From Halofilum ochraceum (GTDB taxonomy: Bacteria; Pseudomonadota; Gammaproteobacteria; XJ16; Halofilaceae): 64,000 nt of DNA. The stretch lies in assembly GCF_001614315.2 (NCBI RefSeq), contig NZ_LVEG02000019.1, positions 1 through 64,000 of the forward strand, written 5' to 3'. The notes beneath the pieces are model-generated. The model was not told the origin of the DNA. It searched no databases and saw only the letters and a list, made by a program, of their open reading frames with translations. A program made the translations under genes and the position numbers. How positions within the stretch are numbered: the stretch's first letter is position 1; each line of letters opens with the position of its first letter. This document shows, piece by piece, positions 2,752 to 58,168 of this stretch.

Positions 2752-3996
2752 CTAATTCAATTCTCCCACGGCCTTCGGCGGAGCGTCCAGCCCGAAAGCG
2801 GCATGCAGCGCCCGCACCCCAAGCTCCAGGTACTTCTCGTCAACCACGACCGAGATCTTGATCTCCGACGTCGAGATCATGTGGATATTGATCCCTTCAT
2901 TCCCCAGCGCCTCGAACATCCGGGTCGCGATACCGGCATGGGAGCGCATCCCCACGCCCACGAGCGAGATCTTGACGATACTCTCGTCCCCGTCGACCCG
3001 TTCCGCCCCGATTTCCTCGGTGATGCCCCGGACCAGCTCCAGTGCCTGCTGGTAGTCGTTCCGGTGCACCGTGAACGTGAAGTTGGCGGTGCCGCCATCC
3101 GAGGCCACGTTCTGCAGGATCATGTCCACTTCGATATTGGCATCGGAGACCGCGCCGATGATCCGGCGGGCGATACCCGGCTGGTCCGGCGCGCCCGCGA
3201 CGCGAATCTGCGCCTCGTCACGGTTGAAGGCGATGCCGGAAATGACGGCGTCTTCCATTTCGGGCTCCTCATAGGTAATCAGGGTGCCGGCGTTCTCCTG
3301 GAAGCTGGAGAGGACGCGCAGCGGCACATTGTACTTGCCGGCGAATTCGACCGAGCGGATCTGCAGCACCTTCGCGCCGAGACTCGCGAGCTCGAGCATC
3401 TCCTCGAACGTGATCCGATCGAGACGGCGAGCCCGGGGTTCGATCCGCGGGTCGGTCGTATAGATGCCGTCGACATCCGTGAAGATCTGGCACTCGTCGG
3501 CCTTGAGGGCGGCCGCCAGGGCGACCGCCGAGGTATCCGAACCGCCACGCCCGAGCGTGGTGATATTGCCGGCGGCATCGACGCCCTGGAATCCGGCCAC
3601 GACCACCACGCGCCCGGCCGCGAGGTCGGAATCGATGCGTTCGCGGCCCACGTTCTTGATCCGCGCCTTGTTGTGCGTCTCGTCGGTCTGCACCGCCACC
3701 TGCCCGCCCGTATACGAGCGGGCCGGACAGCCGCGTTTCTCCAGGGCCATCGCGAGCAGGGCAATCGTGACCTGTTCCCCGGTCGACATCAGCACATCGA
3801 GTTCACGCGGCGTCGGCTTCGGCATCACCTGTTTCGCGAGATCGATCAGGCGATTCGTCTCACCGCTCATGGCGGAGACGACCACGACCACATCATCCCC
3901 CTGGTCACGCGACGCCTTCACCAGGTCGGCTACATGCTCGATCCGTTCGATGGTGCCGACGGACGTACCGCCAAATTTCTTTACATACAGGCTCAT
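2752..3996 (-). CDS. lysC: aspartate kinase
   Basis: A 414-residue monofunctional aspartokinase catalysing the first step of lysine, threonine and methionine synthesis. KFGGTSVG at the N-terminus is the nucleotide/aspartate-binding signature. The last 150 residues form two ACT domains that sense end products. The length matches the Pseudomonas-type enzyme rather than the 449-residue E. coli LysC. It sits 74 bp after alaS; that gap is too short for a lysine riboswitch, so feedback through ACT domains is the likely control. The product feeds Asd, encoded at 21.6 kb. Confidence 0.97.
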   Translation of the reverse strand: MSLYVKKFGGTSVGTIERIEHVADLVKASRDQGDDVVVVVSAMSGETNRLIDLAKQVMPKPTPRELDVLMSTGEQVTIALLAMALEKRGCPARSYTGGQVAVQTDETHNKARIKNVGRERIDSDLAAGRVVVVAGFQGVDAAGNITTLGRGGSDTSAVALAAALKADECQIFTDVDGIYTTDPRIEPRARRLDRITFEEMLELASLGAKVLQIRSVEFAGKYNVPLRVLSSFQENAGTLITYEEPEMEDAVISGIAFNRDEAQIRVAGAPDQPGIARRIIGAVSDANIEVDMILQNVASDGGTANFTFTVHRNDYQQALELVRGITEEIGAERVDGDESIVKISLVGVGMRSHAGIATRMFEALGNEGINIHMISTSEIKISVVVDEKYLELGVRALHAAFGLDAPPKAVGELN

Positions 3997-6791: not shown

Positions 6792-7268
6792 TCACTCATC
6801 CGCGTTGTCGTAATCGGTAACCCGCCGGACGATACCGGCGGGGAAGCCGCGTCCCTGCAGGAAACGCATCCGTTTTGACAGTTCAGCTCGGGTCGCCGGG
6901 GCGGAAACGCCAAAGCGCCGCTCCAGCGCCTCACGCGCGAGCGAGGTCCACTCCTCCTCGAAAGGCAGCAGCGCAGCGTCGATGATCTGACGATCGACCC
7001 CTCGCTCCCCCAGCGCCGAGCGGAGTTTGAGCGGCCCGTCACCGCGGGCCACCCGCTGCTCGACGAACAGGTTCGCGAACCGCTCGTCGCTCTGCAGCCC
7101 CTCGGCGGCGAGCCGCTCGATCTCGGCGTCGATCGCGGCGCGCCCGTAACCGCGCTGTTCGAGTTTCAGCGCCAGCTCGCCGGCCGCGTGCTCGCGCCGC
7201 GCAAGCAGTCGAATGGCCGCCTCATGCAGCTCGGGATCGCGCTCGTTATCCCTCTCCGGATCCGGCAG
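6792..7268 (-). CDS. recX: RecX, regulator of RecA (probable CTG start)
   Basis: RecX binds along RecA filaments and limits recombinase activity. The reading frame carries the family's helical repeats: [16 protein letters not shown], then ALKLEQRGY, then [12 protein letters not shown] near the end. No ATG, GTG or TTG occurs in frame upstream of 7052, and starting at that GTG would delete the conserved N-terminal half. An in-frame CTG at 7268 has AGGAG exactly 7 bases upstream, lies 23 bp inside recA and gives 158 residues, close to other RecX proteins. The CTG start is inference; the family assignment is firm. Translation is probably coupled to recA. Confidence 0.8.
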
Positions 7269-8295
7269 CTTCTGTCTCCTCGGCTTCTTTACCGGGCTTC
7301 GCCGGCTTGGTCAGGAGCAGTTCGCGCAGTTTCTGCTCGATCTCCTGCGCTGTGTCCGGGTGCTCTTTCAGATAGTTGCGGACATTCTCCTTGCCCTGCC
7401 CGATGCGCGTACCATTGTAGCTGTACCAGGCACCCGATTTGTCGACGATCGAGTTCTTCACCCCGAGGTCGATCAGTTCGCCCTCGACGGATACCCCCTC
7501 GCCATAGAGGATCTCGAACTCGGCCTGGCGGAACGGGGGCGCCATCTTGTTCTTGACGACCTTCACCCGGGTCTCGTTGCCGATCACCTCTTCGCCCTTC
7601 TTGATCGAGCCGATCCGGCGGATATCGAGGCGCACGGAGCTGTAGAACTTGAGCGCATTGCCGCCGGTGGTGGTCTCCGGGCTGCCAAACATGACGCCGA
7701 TCTTCATCCGGATCTGGTTGATGAAGCAGACCATCGTGCCCGAGCGCTGGATATTGGCGGTCAGCTTGCGCAGGGCCTGCGACATCAGGCGGGCGTGCAG
7801 GCCGACATGGGAATCCCCCATCTCGCCCTCGATCTCCGCCTTCGGCGTCAGCGCGGCGACCGAGTCGACCACGACCATGTCGATCGCGCCGGAACGCACG
7901 AGCATGTCGGCGATCTCGAGTGCCTGATCGCCCGTGTCGGGCTGCGAGACCAGCAGCTCATCGACGTCGACCCCGAGCTTCTCCGCGTAGGTCGGATCGA
8001 GTGCGTGCTCGGCGTCGATGAAGGCACAGGTGCCGCCGTCCTTCTGACACTCGGCGATGACCTGGAGCATCATGGTGGTCTTACCGGAAGATTCCGGGCC
8101 ATAGATTTCCACGACCCGCCCGCGGGGCAGCCCGCCGACTCCCAGCGCCACATCCAGCGACAGGGAGCCCGTGGAGACCACGGATACGTTGCGCACGGCG
8201 GAGTCGTCGCCCATGCGCATGACGGCGCCCTTGCCGAACTGCTTCTCGATCTGGCCGAGCGCTGCGTTCAGCGCCTTTTTGCGATCCTGATCCAC
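7246..8295 (-). CDS. recA: recombinase RecA
   Basis: A 349-residue DNA strand-exchange ATPase and SOS coprotease. Walker [10 protein letters not shown] is at about residues 66-74, followed by the L1/L2 DNA-binding loops and an acidic C-terminus ([15 protein letters not shown]). GTG at 8295 is preferred because GGAGG lies 7 bases upstream; the TTG at 8301 is only 1-2 bases from it. recX overlaps the 3' end. No CTGT-N8-ACAG LexA box is visible in the 160 bp between the gene and the repeat element upstream. Confidence 0.97.
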
Positions 8296-8456
8296 GCGCA
8301 AACCTCCATCAACGTCCGGTCCCGGACCACGCCCGGGGCATCCGCCGGATTATCCCACACCGAGCGCCTCCATCGAACCCCGCATCGCCCATCGTTCCCG
8401 AGCGTGCGGGCCTCGGATCGGGGCTGAAAAGAACCGCGAATGAACTGGCCGGATAA

Positions 8457-8802
8457 GAACCACGAATGAACACGAATGGACACGAATAGGTCCTGGGGCT
8501 TCGAGCGGCTTCTGGAGCTTCGCTGTTGGACCTCGGGCGCTTCAACCGGATACTGAAGAACCACAGATAAACACATATGAACACAGATAAAACCGGGTCT
8601 GTGGAAGCGGGTACGGCGGGGTGATCGCTCCGATGGTCGAGTCGCCCGGACGGCGATCATTTTTGTCTTTATCCGTGTCTATCTGTGTTCATCCGTGGTT
8701 CCGCCTTTCCCGCACCGGGTGGCAACAAGGCGTCAGCGAAGCTCCTCAAGCGTGTGGCTGCCCCGGGACCCATTCGTGTCCATTCGTGTTCATTCGTGGT
8801 TC
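8457..8802. repeat. nested inverted-repeat element C (346 bp)
   Basis: The ends (8457-8487 and 8772-8802) are 31-bp perfect inverted repeats made of tandem 10-bp units ACACGAATGR, followed inward by GGAGCTTCGCTGTT-type imperfect repeats. The element lies 26 nt past the purF stop. Inside sits a second inverted repeat (8558-8592 with 8668-8701) built from a different 10-bp unit, ACACAGATAA. The outer parts match the elements at 27968-28306 and 29865-30212; the core does not. A degenerate half copy (GAACCGCGAATGAACTGG) lies just outside at 8431-8448. No protein is credible in 8296-8828. Confidence 0.85.
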
Positions 8803-8828: not shown

Positions 8829-10337
8829 CTAGCCGATCCCTACGTCCTCGAGTTCTTCGCCGTCGGCGGCGTCGGAGCGGGCGCCTTCGCCGCGGAGGAG
8901 TTCGAGCTGGCGGAGGTACTGGGGATTGACGTCGCCGGTGAGGTACTCGCCGGTGAAGCAGCAGCCCTCGAATTGCGTGAGCGAGGTGTTGCCGGCGCGC
9001 ACGGCCTCGATCAGGTCCTCGATCGACTGGTAGATGATCCAGTCCGCCCCGATCTCGGTGCCGATCTCTTCCTCGGTGCGCTCGTGGCCGATCAGCTCGT
9101 CGGCGGCCGGCATGTCGATGCCGTAGACGTTGGGGTACCGCACGGGCGGGGCCGCCGAGGCCATGTAGACGCGCTTGGCGCCGGCATCGCGTGCCATCTG
9201 GATAATCTCGTGCGAGGTGGTGCCGCGCACGATCGAGTCGTCGACCAGCAGCACGTTCTTGCCCCGGAACTCCAGCTCGATCGCGTTCAGTTTCTGCCGC
9301 ACCGATTTCCGGCGCTGTTGCTGGCCGGGCATGATGAAGGTGCGGCCGATATAGCGGTTCTTGATGAACCCCTCACGGTATTTCACGTTGAGCCGGTTGG
9401 CCATCTCCAGCGCGGCCGTGCGGCTGGTGTCGGGGATCGGGATGATGACGTCGATGTCATGTTCCGCCCACTCGCGCTGGATCTTGTCCGCCAGATGCTC
9501 GCCCATGCGCAGGCGCGACTTGTAGACGGACACGTCGTCGATGATCGAATCGGGGCGCGCGAAGTAGACATATTCGAACAGGCATGGGGCCTGGACGGTG
9601 TTCTCGGCGCAGACCCGGCTGTGGACGGTACCGTCGGACTCGATGTAGACCGCCTCCCCGGCACGCAGGTCCCGTTCGAGTTCGAAGCCCATTGCATCCA
9701 GCGCGACGCTCTCCGAGGCGATCATGTACTCGGGCCCCATGATCGTATCGCGGCGCCCGAGCACCACCGGGCGGATGCCCCAGGGGTCGCGGAACGCAAG
9801 GATACCGCGGCCGGCGATCATCGTGATCACCGCATATCCGCCCCGGGTCCGTTCGTGGACGCGCGAGACGGCGGCGAAGACATCGTCGGCCTCGAGCCGG
9901 GTCGAGGTCACGCGGTTCTGCAGTTCATGGGCGAAGACGTTGAGCAGGACTTCCGTGTCCGAGGAGGTATTGATGTGGCGCAGATCGGCTTCGAACAGCT
10001 GGCGTTTGAGTTCACCGGCGTTCGTGAGGTTGCCGTTATGGGCCATGGCGATGCCGTACGGTGAATTCACGTAGAACGGCTGGGCCTCGGCCGAGGACTG
10101 GGTGCCGGCCGTGGGATAGCGGCAGTGGCCGATTCCCATATCGCCCTGCAGGCGCATCATGTGCCGCGTATGGAAGACGTCGCGAACGAGCCCGACGCTC
10201 TTGCGCATGAACAGCTTGCCCTCGTGGCAGGTCATGATGCCGGCGGCATCCTGGCCCCGGTGCTGTTGCAGCGTCAGTCCGTCGTAGAGCGACTGATTGA
10301 CCGGACCGCGACCGACGATTCCGATGATCCCGCACAT
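8829..10337 (-). CDS. purF: amidophosphoribosyltransferase
   Basis: A 502-residue enzyme catalysing the first committed step of purine synthesis (PRPP + glutamine to phosphoribosylamine). MCGIIGIVG exposes Cys2 as the N-terminal nucleophile of the glutaminase domain, which fixes the start at ATG 10337 (GGGGG 8 bases upstream). The C-terminal phosphoribosyltransferase domain has the PRPP loop [15 protein letters not shown]. coli PurF is 505 residues. The cvpA-purF order is classical; the 122-bp gap may hold regulatory signals, but no clear PurR operator was recognised. Confidence 0.97.
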
Positions 10338-10459
10338 TGCGTCAACCCCCTGGCGTCGCCGACCGGGCCAATCCCCGTGGGACGACACACAACCTGCAAT
10401 GAAAAACTTTTCCCGTCAGTCTCCGCGACAGGCAACGCGGAAAGCGGGAATCTATGGAC

Positions 10460-17542: not shown

Positions 17543-20500
17543 TCAGCGGATGCTTTCGAGGAGGCTCTGGGCCTCGCTGCGCTGTTGCTCATTGCCCGAG
17601 GCCGCGACCTCCTCCAGCGCATTCGTGGCGCTCTCGGGGTCGCCCATATCGATATAGGCCCGTGCGAGATCGAGCATGGTGTCGAACTCCTCGTCCTCGG
17701 CCTCGACCCCGCTATCGGCGGTGGCCGCTCCGCCTGCGGCATCGGCGGACTCATCGACCTCGGGCCCCTGGGCCGGCGCGGCCTCGGCCGCATCCGTTTC
17801 CGTCGAATCCGGTTCCGCCGCGCCGAGATCGTCGAGGTTGAACGCGCCGTCGTCGTCCGCGCCACCCACGCTATCGAGATCACTCAGGTCAAACGCGTCA
17901 TCGTCCCCGGTCGCATCATCCCCGGCCCCGGCGCCACCGGCCCCGGGTCCGGCGGGCGTGTCTCCCGCGGTCGGTTCTTCGCTGTCGGTCTGAAGATCCG
18001 ACAGATCGAATTCGCCCGCGTCCGCCTCACCGTCATCGCCGCCCGCGGCGGTCTGTGGCTCGTGCGGCGACTCGACGTCACCAGCCCCCGCGTCCGTTTC
18101 GGACTCCGTATCCAGCGAATCGAGATCGCCGATCTCGAGATCACCGATTTCGAGCGGTTCATCGTCGGCGCTGCCGGCCGGTTCCGCCGGCGTCGAACGG
18201 TCCTCGGCCGTCGCCGACGTGTTCGAATCCGCAGACGTTTCCTCGAGATCGAAATCAAAATCCAGGCCGCCGTCGCCGCTGTCAGCACTCGCCGGTGCCT
18301 CGACTTCCCCGGAATCGCCTTCGTCGATTTCCGCCAACCCTTCCTTCGGGCTCTCCGGCTCCTCGAAATCGAGGTCGAAATCGAGTGCACCCTCATCGGC
18401 AGCGCCTTCCGACCCCTCACGCTCATCGGCAGCGCCTTCCGACCCCTCACGATCGCCGGACTCCGTCGCCGGGGCGTCCTCCAGGTCGAAATCGATCTCG
18501 TCCGAATCGCCAGCGGCCGTAGTCGGCTCCGCGGACGCCGGTGCCGGCGCACTCTCGTCCGCGGTCAGGCCATCAAGGTCCCCGAGGTCGAACTCGAGAT
18601 CCTCGTCCGCGTCGCCCTCAGCGGCAGCGGTGGCCCCGGCGGTACCGCTATCAGACGCCCTGGTCTGATCGTCACCGGGCCCAACCAGCCCGCCGTCACC
18701 TTCAACCGCCTCAAAGTCTGCGGAATCCAGCATCATCGTGCTGCTGAACTCGTCGTCGTCCTCCTCGTCCGCCGAGCCGGAGCCACTCGCGGCAGCCGAT
18801 TCCGGCTCATCATCGAACCCGAAGTCGATCTCCCCGTCGCTGTCATCCAGCTCGAGATCGGTACCCGCCGGCCGCGTCGGCTGCACATCCGCCGCCGTAA
18901 ACTCCGTATCACCCTCGGCGAACAGCTCGTGTTGCGGTGCCAACTCGCGGCCCATGGTCAGAACACGCTGCCAGAGGCGGCTGTCCGGACCATCGACCAT
19001 CCCGCGGAACGTCCCGGCCTCTTCGATGAATTCCTCGGTCTTGCCACTCGCATACAGCGTCTCGAGCAGCTTCTCGTGGTACATCGCGTTCCCGGGGTGC
19101 TCCCGCAGGGCCAGCCGCAGCAGGTCCTCGGACTGCTGATGCAGTCCATAAGCGAGGTACACGTCGGCCTCCGCGACCGTGTCGTCCTTCTCCGCTTCCT
19201 CGTCGTCAGCCCCACTCGACGGCTCATCGAGCGGGGTGCTCGCGGCGCGATCCGACGGCTCTTCCTCATCCAGAGAAGCGACGTCGAACTCCTCCTCCAT
19301 CAGCGCCGACTGTGCTTCTTCGGCACTCGGCGAGCTTGTGCCCGTGTCCTCGGCGTCGATATCGCCCTCTGCAGCCGCGCCGTCGAAGCGTCCCGAGGAA
19401 TCCGGGTCGAATGGCGCAAGGCCGCTGTTCGTGTCGTCCGGATCGAAGCCCTCCAGATCATCCGATTCCGCTGGCTCGCGCCGCCGACGCATGAGGATCA
19501 ATCCACCGCCGAGCAATACGACCGCGGCGGCCAGACCCAGACCCATCGGACCACCGAGAAGCCCGCCGCCGCCCGCAAAGATGCCCGTCACCGCGGCGAT
19601 CACGGCATTCACCTGATCGAGCCAGGTCTCCTCCGGTTCCTGCGTGCGCGTGGTTTGCAAGCCGCGATCCGCGTCGGTGACCCGCTTGTCTTCGGGGATG
19701 TAGTTCTCGTCGGCTTCGTCCCCTGCGCTCGCCGTCGTTTCGGCGGCGTCCGCCTCACCGGCCTCACCGGCCTCACCGGCCTCACCGGCCTCGGCAGCGT
19801 CGGCGGTCTCGGCGGTCTCGGCGGTCTCGGCGGTGTCGGCAGATGCCATCTGATCGGAGGCGGTCTCGCCGTCGCCCGCCCCGGTGGTGTCACCGTCGCC
19901 GGACCCGCCGTCGGTCGTGGTCGTGCCGGCTCCCGCGTCTTCGCCGCTATCGACGTCCGCGGCGGCTACCGTTTCGTCGTCGTCCCCGCTCGCGGCCACC
20001 GACTCCCCATCGGCGCTGGCCTGATCATCGTCGCTCGCACCCGCGTCCGTGTCATCGGCACTGGCGACGTCTGCCCCGCTTTCGTCCTCGGCGGCTGTCT
20101 CTGAACCTTCGTCCGCGTCCTGGCGACCCTCGAGTTTGCGCAGTTCTTCCTGCAGCGCGCTCAGGCGCTCATCACGCACCTCGAGCAGTTTTTCCATTTT
20201 GGAAACGGTCTGCTCGAGCTGGTCTACCCTGGATTCGAGTTCTTCCTTTTCGAGCCGTGTCGATTCCAGTTCTTCACGCGCCAGCTGGAGTTTCTCGCTC
20301 TCATCCTGCGAACTGCTGCCGGTCGCGGACGCGGCTTCGTCGCTGCTCGCGCCGCCATCGTCGGCCCCGACGATGGAGAGTTCGCCGTCATCCGCGCCGG
20401 TCGAAGTCTGCGCGGCGGCACCCGCGTCACCCGAACCCTGGTCGGATGCGGCCACAGCCGTCCGCGAACGTGTGCCTTCCTGCAGTTCCCGCCACACGCC

Positions 20501-27913: not shown

Positions 27914-27940
27914 TAAATCACTTTAAGCAGTGATCATAAA

Positions 27941-27966
27941 GCCCCGCTTACGCGGGGCTTTTTTTT
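27941..27966 (+). terminator. intrinsic terminator of sodA
   Basis: GCCCCGC-TTAC-GCGGGGC followed by eight T. Just before it is a weak palindrome ATCACT/AGTGAT (27917-27934). The repeat element A begins two bases after the T run. Confidence 0.9.
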
Positions 27967-27967
27967 G

Positions 27968-28306
27968 GAACCACGAATGAACACGAATGGACACGGATGG
28001 GGTTGGGGCTACCGGCGGCTTCTGGAGCTTCGCTGTTCGGGGTTCAAGGGAAAGGCATAACCAAAATATGGACTAAAAATGAACGAAAAATGGCCTGGTT
28101 CGTGATTCGGGGCCTTTGACGACGTCTGAACCGAAGCGGCCCCCGCAGTCCTTGTTCTTATTGTGATGTGAACCGTAAGACCGATTTTTCGTCCATTTTT
28201 AGTCCATTTTTTGGTTATGCATTTCTCACAACCCGAACAGCGAAGCTCCAGAAGTCTCCGATAGCCCAGAGACCTATTCGTGTCCATTCGTGTTCATTCG
28301 TGGTTC
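27968..28306 (-). repeat. structured inverted-repeat element A (339 bp)
   Basis: Terminal inverted repeats of 28 bp (27968-27995, 28279-28306) are built from ACACGAATGR units. Inward, imperfect complementary arms of about 105 bp contain GGAGCTTCGCTGTT and ATAACCAAAAAATGGACT. An asymmetric core of about 90 bp, read on the minus strand, matches the core of element B at roughly 80% by eye. It fills the convergent sodA-lysS gap, ending 26 nt past the lysS stop. The strand given is that of the core. Confidence 0.85.
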
Positions 28307-29864: not shown

Positions 29865-30212
29865 GAACCACGAATGAACACGAATGAACACGAATGATTC
29901 TGGGGAGCACAAGGCGTTGTGGAGCTTCGCTGTTGGCGAGTTCAGGCATCAAGGAGTTAATTCATAACCAAAAAATGGACTAAAAATGGACAAAAAATTG
30001 CTCTTACGATTTACATCACGATAAGAGCAAGCGCTGCTGGTGCCGCTTCGGTTCAGGCGCCGTCAAAGACACCGAATCCCGAACCGAGCCATTTTCGTTC
30101 ATTTTTAGTCCATTTTTTGATTATGCATTTCTCACAACCCGAGCAGCGAAGCTCCAGAAGCCTCCGATAACCCCGAGACCTATTCGTGTCCATTCGTGTT
30201 CATTCGTGGTTC
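29865..30212 (+). repeat. structured inverted-repeat element B (348 bp)
   Basis: It has the same organisation as element A, with the core on the opposite strand. The core contains the perfect hairpins GCTCTTA-N15-TAAGAGC and CGGTTC...GAACCG, both at least partly kept in A. The right end lies 21 nt past the prfB stop and the left end 41 nt before the lysS start, so it interrupts the prfB-lysS unit. No credible ORF; short frames translating as IRVHSWF-like peptides are artefacts of the end repeats. Confidence 0.85.
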
Positions 30213-38367: not shown

Positions 38368-38474
38368 TGCATCCACCTCCCGAAAACGCCGACGCTCAGG
38401 ACCCTGCCGCTCAGGTTTCCGGTTCCCGATGGCCTGCCGCCCAGGTCCGCACCCACCACGACACGCCCGATCAT

Positions 38475-38621
38475 GTTGGGTTTCGCTGCGCTCAACACCA
38501 ACCTACGCGTTTTCATGCAGGATTACATACTCGGGTTTTCGTGGCGCTGGACTACGCCTCGTTCAACCCGACCCGCGATCCGGGGAATCACAGGTTGGTG
38601 TTCAGCGCAGCGAAACCCAAC
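38475..38621. repeat. inverted-repeat pair GTTGGGTTTCGCTGCG
   Basis: Positions 38475-38504 and 38592-38621 are 30-bp inverted copies with a single mismatch, 87 bp apart. The sequence GTTGGGTTTCGCTGCGCTCA belongs to a REP-like family found between genes across Proteobacteria. The right end is 16 nt after the stop of the downstream diguanylate cyclase gene. Confidence 0.82.
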
Positions 38622-38637
38622 AGCTGCACGCCATCCA

Positions 38638-58011: not shown

Positions 58012-58168
58012 CCCTGTAGGAGCGAGCTTGCTCGCGATCGTGCCCGCACACGCCTGGCGGCAATGCCCGGCGTGAATGAAAACCCGTCGGTGCAATCCGC
58101 GCATCTTCCGGGCGTGTGAACGTGGCAGCTGTCATCACACGATCGCGAGCAAGCTCGCTCCTACAGGG
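58012..58168. repeat. REP-like inverted repeat pair, copy 2
   Basis: Positions 58012-58042 and 58138-58168 are perfect 31-bp inverted copies whose inner 23 bp are the repeat found at 131-213. The 95-bp spacer is unrelated. The orientation of the halves is opposite to copy 1. It lies between ybiI and the formate dehydrogenase cluster. Confidence 0.87.

Follow-up and report, generated by a model that had tools for sequence, protein, structure and literature searches.

Element C, a two-layer palindromic element of 346 bp with a shell of CGAAT-type arrays and a CAGAT-type core, occupies positions 8457 to 8802 of the window (the whole stretch of 64,000 nucleotides of Halofilum ochraceum DNA analyzed here), and no strand is assigned to it. 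It is flanked by the 3′ end of purF (complement of 8829-10388) and the 5′ side of recA (complement of 7246-8301); both gene names are our own reading of the open reading frames. The left outer array (8457 to 8487, plus strand) consists of three CGAAT units (ACACGAATGR) and reads GAACCACGAATGAACACGAATGGACACGAAT, and the right outer array (8772 to 8802, minus strand), also built of CGAAT units, is its perfect 31-bp inverted copy. About 27 nt inside the left outer array lies the 12-mer GGAGCTTCGCTG (8514 to 8525, plus strand), a mini-hairpin motif of the form AGC NNN GCT, whose reverse complement is found in the right arm (8734 to 8745, minus strand). Further inward are the left inner array of CAGAT units (8559 to 8588, plus strand), 101 bp from the outer array, the innermost core (8589 to 8670, no strand assigned) and the right inner array of CAGAT/CGGAT units (8671 to 8700, minus strand). 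The inner palindrome thus delimited is 142 bp long and is bounded by the CAGAT-type arrays AACCACAGATAAACACATATGAACACAGAT / AACCACGGATGAACACAGATAGACACGGAT on the minus strand; a repeat search of the window returned an 81-nt inverted repeat at 83% in the element.

The original prediction held that C shares its 31-bp CGAAT-type ends with two other elements of the window, A and B, and that it has a different center. Both points are borne out by the anatomy just described. The prediction also gave a subterminal motif of 14 nt, of which the 12-mer is present in both arms and the trailing TT in the left arm only, so that the conserved motif is the 12-mer. Element A (27968 to 28306; 339 bp) and element B (29865 to 30212; 348 bp), likewise without assigned strand, have a CGAAT shell around a ATAACCAAAAAATGGACTAAAAATG-type core, and both sites carry a CAGAT core in the sister species (we refer to the present genome as G000, to that of the sister species as G001 and to that of a third congener, from the same genus, as G002). 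The core of B resembles the core of A in inverted orientation (86%), and the right arms of A and B are 95% identical over 121 bp, whereas each is 83 to 85% identical to its orthologue in the sister. That A, B and C are of nearly equal length had been noticed correctly, but the idea that length is preserved was not supported: total lengths run from 286 to 344 bp in the census of elements with a CAGAT core in a CGAAT shell, written CGAAT[CAGAT], and from 313 to 379 bp in that of CGAAT[AAAAATG] elements. The near-equality is a by-product of modular size, because the plan combines two arms, each about 100 bp long, with a core of about 110 to 150 bp.

Several other repeats lie in the window. Positions 2195-2266 hold an inverted repeat whose 34-bp arms match perfectly around a loop of 4 nt and which contains a strong terminator; a sequence closely resembling its core (27938-27965) immediately precedes element A. 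GTAG-type REP palindromes (TGTAGGAGCGAGCTTGCTCGCGATCG; 131-222 and 58012-58168) form a REP family of their own, of the type associated with RAYT transposases. A 31-nt inverted repeat (TGTTGGGTTTCGCTGCGCTCAACACCAACCT) whose arms are 87 nt apart (38474-38622) apparently represents another palindromic repeat family, and CACCGGCCT units form a short tandem repeat at 19739-19809.

A family of layered elements in the genome

The end pattern has 222 matches with no more than one mismatch in the 3.64-Mb genome of H. ochraceum and the reversed control has 0, so that chance does not explain the ends. From the stretches around elements we retrieved approximately 57 elements and mapped their arrays. Layered palindromic repeats of the C type, CGAAT[CAGAT], account for 21 of these (17 of them plain, the other 4 bearing an additional unit or a partial array), which rules out the view of C as a unique chimera. 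An AAAAATG core, as in A and B, is present in 9 or 10 elements and a CAAAATG core in 3; another 14 are simple CGAAT elements, and 3 show the opposite order of layers, CAGAT[CGAAT]. The census further contains a single three-layer element of 532 bp and one element (at L072) in which the two unit types, or flavors, are interleaved. At another locus, L075, two CAGAT[CGAAT] elements (1484-1860 and 2796-3170) lie about 1 kb apart and are 89% identical inside, and this pair is likely to reflect recent copying or conversion.

The elements end in inverted arrays, each built of three 10-bp units. In 64 complete elements from this species and its sister, a G precedes and a C follows the array at 127 of 128 junctions. 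Successive arrays are spaced 99 bp apart (59 of 76 spacings fall within 96-102), the outer CGAAT arrays of this genome are perfect in 72 of 94 cases, and the AGC NNN GCT stem is retained at about 90% of 179 sites, with a few compensated changes. Neither target-site duplications nor an excess of direct repeats was seen at the junctions of the 64 complete elements, and the stretches retrieved contained no clean empty site for a single element; for these two reasons, the mobility of single elements can be argued only indirectly. Rfam contained no family matching the elements.

Shared sites and changing contents

The recA-purF site is occupied in the sister species and empty in the third congener, the interval between the aligned flanks being about 142 bp in G002 versus 583 bp in the present genome. 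No dispersed CGAAT or CAGAT arrays were found in G002. Between the present genome and G001, 39 orthologous intergenic sites carry an element in both species (flank identity, about 83 to 94%), a count that covers array-bearing G001 sites, the G001 stretches having been selected for containing arrays. With a homology threshold taken from 150 nonorthologous pairs, and with another alignment replacing the array-masked one, whose matches were too short, the contents at these sites proved to be collinear in 11 cases, inverted in 4, ambiguous in 2 and without recognizable homology in 22. The four inverted elements are C itself and those at L040, L052 and L071; C is inverted as a whole, with 80.7% identity over 368 columns when flipped versus 68% when collinear. 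At 20 of 34 loci, an element matches some paralogue better than it matches its orthologue.

The shells of A and B have orthologues in the sister, but these enclose a CAGAT core at both sites, so that cores evidently change in place. Cores are also lost: at L069 the CAGAT core was removed by deletion, leaving ATCCGTGGTT behind. We considered L069 (compared with L154) as a possible preinsertion site, but this 10-bp remnant of a CAGAT array marks it as a deletion scar and rules the candidate out. A further palindrome, of the GATTTGCTCC...GCGAGGCGCAAGGACGCGCCGAGCAAT type, interrupts CGAAT arrays at a similar point in several copies (L137, L142, L143, L160 and L172 in G001; L034 and L059 in G000) and looks as if it were another element targeting CGAAT arrays.

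Stand-alone core elements, for which a search had been suggested at the outset, are present in the sister species: of its approximately 50 elements, 12 are CAGAT only, at 141 to 467 bp and mostly 141 to 157 bp, and the core of C measures 142 bp. The CAGAT core is therefore an element in its own right. In the present genome we found no stand-alone CAGAT element, every CAGAT match sharing its element with CGAAT arrays, and so the proposed refutation, namely that the inner part is always linked to these ends, would have pointed the wrong way had G001 not been available; it is true within this genome and false once G001 is included. As for the "modular exchange or nested insertion" that had been put forward for C, shell and core are indeed separable and the core is swapped at a fixed site, while the idea of a preserved length has to be given up, and C is not the only element of its kind. 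Nested insertion into CGAAT elements is a possible origin of the composites.

GxxExxY genes within array-bounded elements

A CAGAT-bounded element of the sister species (L146, 15746-16212) carries an intact GxxExxY gene, and the present genome has, at the same site, a CGAAT-bounded element with a GxxExxY gene of its own (L065, 1481-1967). The two proteins are 60% identical, versus nearly 92% for the flanks. Both are full members of the GxxExxY family as defined by TIGR04256 (2e-37; 128.1 and 120.6 bits against a cutoff of 35, over the full model) and by PF13366 (PDDEXK_3; 3.5e-35; 121.3 and 114.6 bits against a cutoff of 22). The PD-(D/E)XK residues are kept (E35, D74, E/D84 and K86), and structure prediction (pLDDT 89.5) gives a compact fold of the PD-(D/E)XK type. 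The nearest folds to the model are lambda exonuclease and SSO0001, a Cas4-type nuclease, at an E value of about 1e-3, and there is no close match; a sequence search returned no solved structures.

The association of such arrays with GxxExxY genes extends well beyond this genus. In named genomes from many phyla, 65 of 80 GxxExxY loci are bounded by inverted repeats scoring at least 26 bits, a score reached by 0 of 80 shuffled controls and by 6 of 140 displaced windows. Nearly all of these repeats are arrays of the same plan, with CGAAT, CAGAT, CGGAT, CGCAAAT, CGCAGAT and other units, and more distant family members are bounded by arrays of the CAGAG, CGAAG and CATGAAG types. GxxExxY genes are present in many other phyla and in 62 (about one-sixth) of 369 genomes sampled from the class; our arrays are present in 5 of the 369 and both together in 3, a co-occurrence that is uninformative because the pattern covers few flavors. 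The two class genomes with arrays and no GxxExxY gene are G063 and G084, and they tell against the proposed role of the nuclease. Within the genus, a second GxxExxY gene was noted in this species (L236, G000 C11:178927-179268) and in its sister (L237, G001 C5:74917-75258), with CGCCAAG-type units on both sides of the gene in L237 and downstream of it in L236. G002, which is without the dispersed CGAAT/CAGAT family, has a GxxExxY gene with flanking units of the CACGAAA type (L238, G002 C12:16550-16897). A literature search, with most subscription journals outside its reach, found no report of a role, DNA sites or a surrounding element for GxxExxY, nor of the repeats.

One column of the GxxExxY alignment near the N terminus (T15 in L065) tracks one base of the array unit in 72 of 76 loci. 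In the discovery set, T occurs at 24 of 25 loci with xGA units and at 1 of 32 with xAA units, the other 31 having S, V or A; in held-out loci the corresponding figures are 8 of 10 and 0 of 9 (Fisher, 7e-4). On a tree built without the N-terminal part of the alignment, the flavor changes at least 13 times, and of 13 independent closest pairs, 11 are concordant, 2 unchanged and none opposed, the best result of all columns. With strongly supported branches only, 4 independent pairs are left, again with none opposed, and this number is too small for significance. The GxxExxY protein of the present genome (L065) departs from the residue code, having T with GAAT.

Outer CGAAT arrays average 0.59 mismatches in this genome versus 3.69 in G001, and outer CAGAT arrays 0.81 in G001 versus 2.27 in this genome, a comparison open to bias since the elements of the two genomes were collected with different patterns, although a pattern that treats both flavors alike gives the same tilt. 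In each species, the better-preserved flavor is that of the resident array-bounded gene.

Discussion

Read from the sequences themselves, the composite structure of C, its copy number, its stand-alone core, the flips, the swapping of cores at one site and the deletion are established, as are the association of the arrays with GxxExxY genes and the covariation of residue and base. On these grounds, C is probably a composite, nonautonomous element associated with GxxExxY, carrying a flavor tag and subject to in-place turnover between inverted arrays. C would consist of a CGAAT shell enclosing a complete CAGAT element, and the flavor of an array (CGAAT, CAGAT and others) would mark the specificity of the GxxExxY lineage to which it belongs. 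The layered repeats would then be relatives, lacking a gene, of a small and widespread mobile element that encodes GxxExxY, a small nuclease on which little work exists. Composites of the C type would have arisen before this species and its sister diverged and would have been passed down at fixed intergenic sites, where the content between the inverted arrays may be flipped, deleted or swapped with that of other family members while the address stays. GxxExxY, we infer, binds the arrays and cuts them, and this cleavage drives the exchange; repair of the break from another copy, or annealing of the inverted arrays, could then yield the flips and exchanges. A more ambitious version, which we advance only tentatively, is that GxxExxY proteins are the sequence-specific nucleases of undescribed, phylum-wide selfish palindromic elements, that an N-terminal residue reads one base of the unit, and that cutting leads to homing-like replacement in place, producing onion-like composites at unchanged addresses.

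The main rival to exchange driven by GxxExxY is plain homologous recombination. The elements could be passive repeats, spread long ago by GxxExxY, whose flips and core swaps arise by RecA-dependent recombination or gene conversion between dispersed inverted repeats. We consider this possible, if somewhat doubtful. Arms and arrays do supply 30 to 120 bp of homology, and both the right arms of A and B, more alike than each is to its orthologue, and their mutually inverted cores are what such a process would leave. However, 22 of the 39 shared sites have kept their address with contents of no recognizable homology, including flavors with little homology to each other, and the arrays of the cognate flavor are cleaner than those of the other flavor.

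It is unlikely that the composites arose by nested transposition, with CAGAT elements entering the centers of CGAAT elements (and the reverse), the center of a palindrome serving as target and the composites then being copied whole. The stand-alone CAGAT elements match the core of C in size, and both nesting orders, as well as the three-layer element, are present. Yet we found no uninterrupted CGAAT center with a matching flank (the sole candidate being the deletion at L069), target duplication is absent, and the constant 99 bp on both arms would demand one exact, symmetric place of insertion every time. Still less probable is that the two species acquired different elements independently, at intergenic sites favored for insertion in both. 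The 22 shared sites with unrelated contents, together with invariant junction bases (G|AACCAC and GGTT|C), would fit such insertions; against them, contents are recognizably orthologous at 17 sites, 39 shared sites far exceed the roughly 1 that we estimate at random for some 2,500 intergenic regions, and the flanks have no common target sequence past the first base. Least probable of all is that the elements are retained for a function as hairpins at gene ends, in termination or mRNA structure, which would require the palindrome and leave its content unconstrained, for although A, B and C all lie between genes in the window and the AGC NNN GCT stem is so widely retained, element A sits directly behind an ordinary terminator (27938-27965) and is not needed there, the G002 site has no element, Rfam has no matching family, and the flavor code and the link to GxxExxY would go unexplained.

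If the elements are indeed the partners of GxxExxY proteins, their closest working analogue is the REPIN with its RAYT/TnpA-REP partner (REPtrons; PMC3116915, PMC8049555, PMC8266576). As there, tens to hundreds of short, gene-less intergenic palindromes accompany a partner gene present in one or a few copies per genome, persistence is long, and the sequence of the partner protein coevolves with the repeat. The elements nevertheless fall outside that class: the partner here is a PD-(D/E)XK protein, whereas RAYT is an HuH tyrosine transposase; the ends are three tandem 10-bp units, where a REPIN pairs two short palindromes in inverted orientation and carries a conserved tag; and, unlike in REPtrons, the elements are nested by flavor and the partner gene lies inside an element with the same bounding arrays. 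The elements also recall MITEs in being short, gene-less and numerous, with terminal inverted repeats and larger gene-bearing relatives that have the same ends. They differ from MITEs in having no target-site duplication, in their layered ends, in the sites common to both species with exchange of contents, and in that the gene-bearing relatives seen carry GxxExxY and no DDE transposase. Inversion between inverted sites, as in C and the three other flipped elements, is shared with site-specific invertible elements.

Should GxxExxY proteins prove to be the nucleases of array-bounded elements, with a code that can be read, a large orphan protein family would gain a function, and intergenic repeats would have a way of turning over, by swapping contents at fixed sites, that needs no ordinary transposition.
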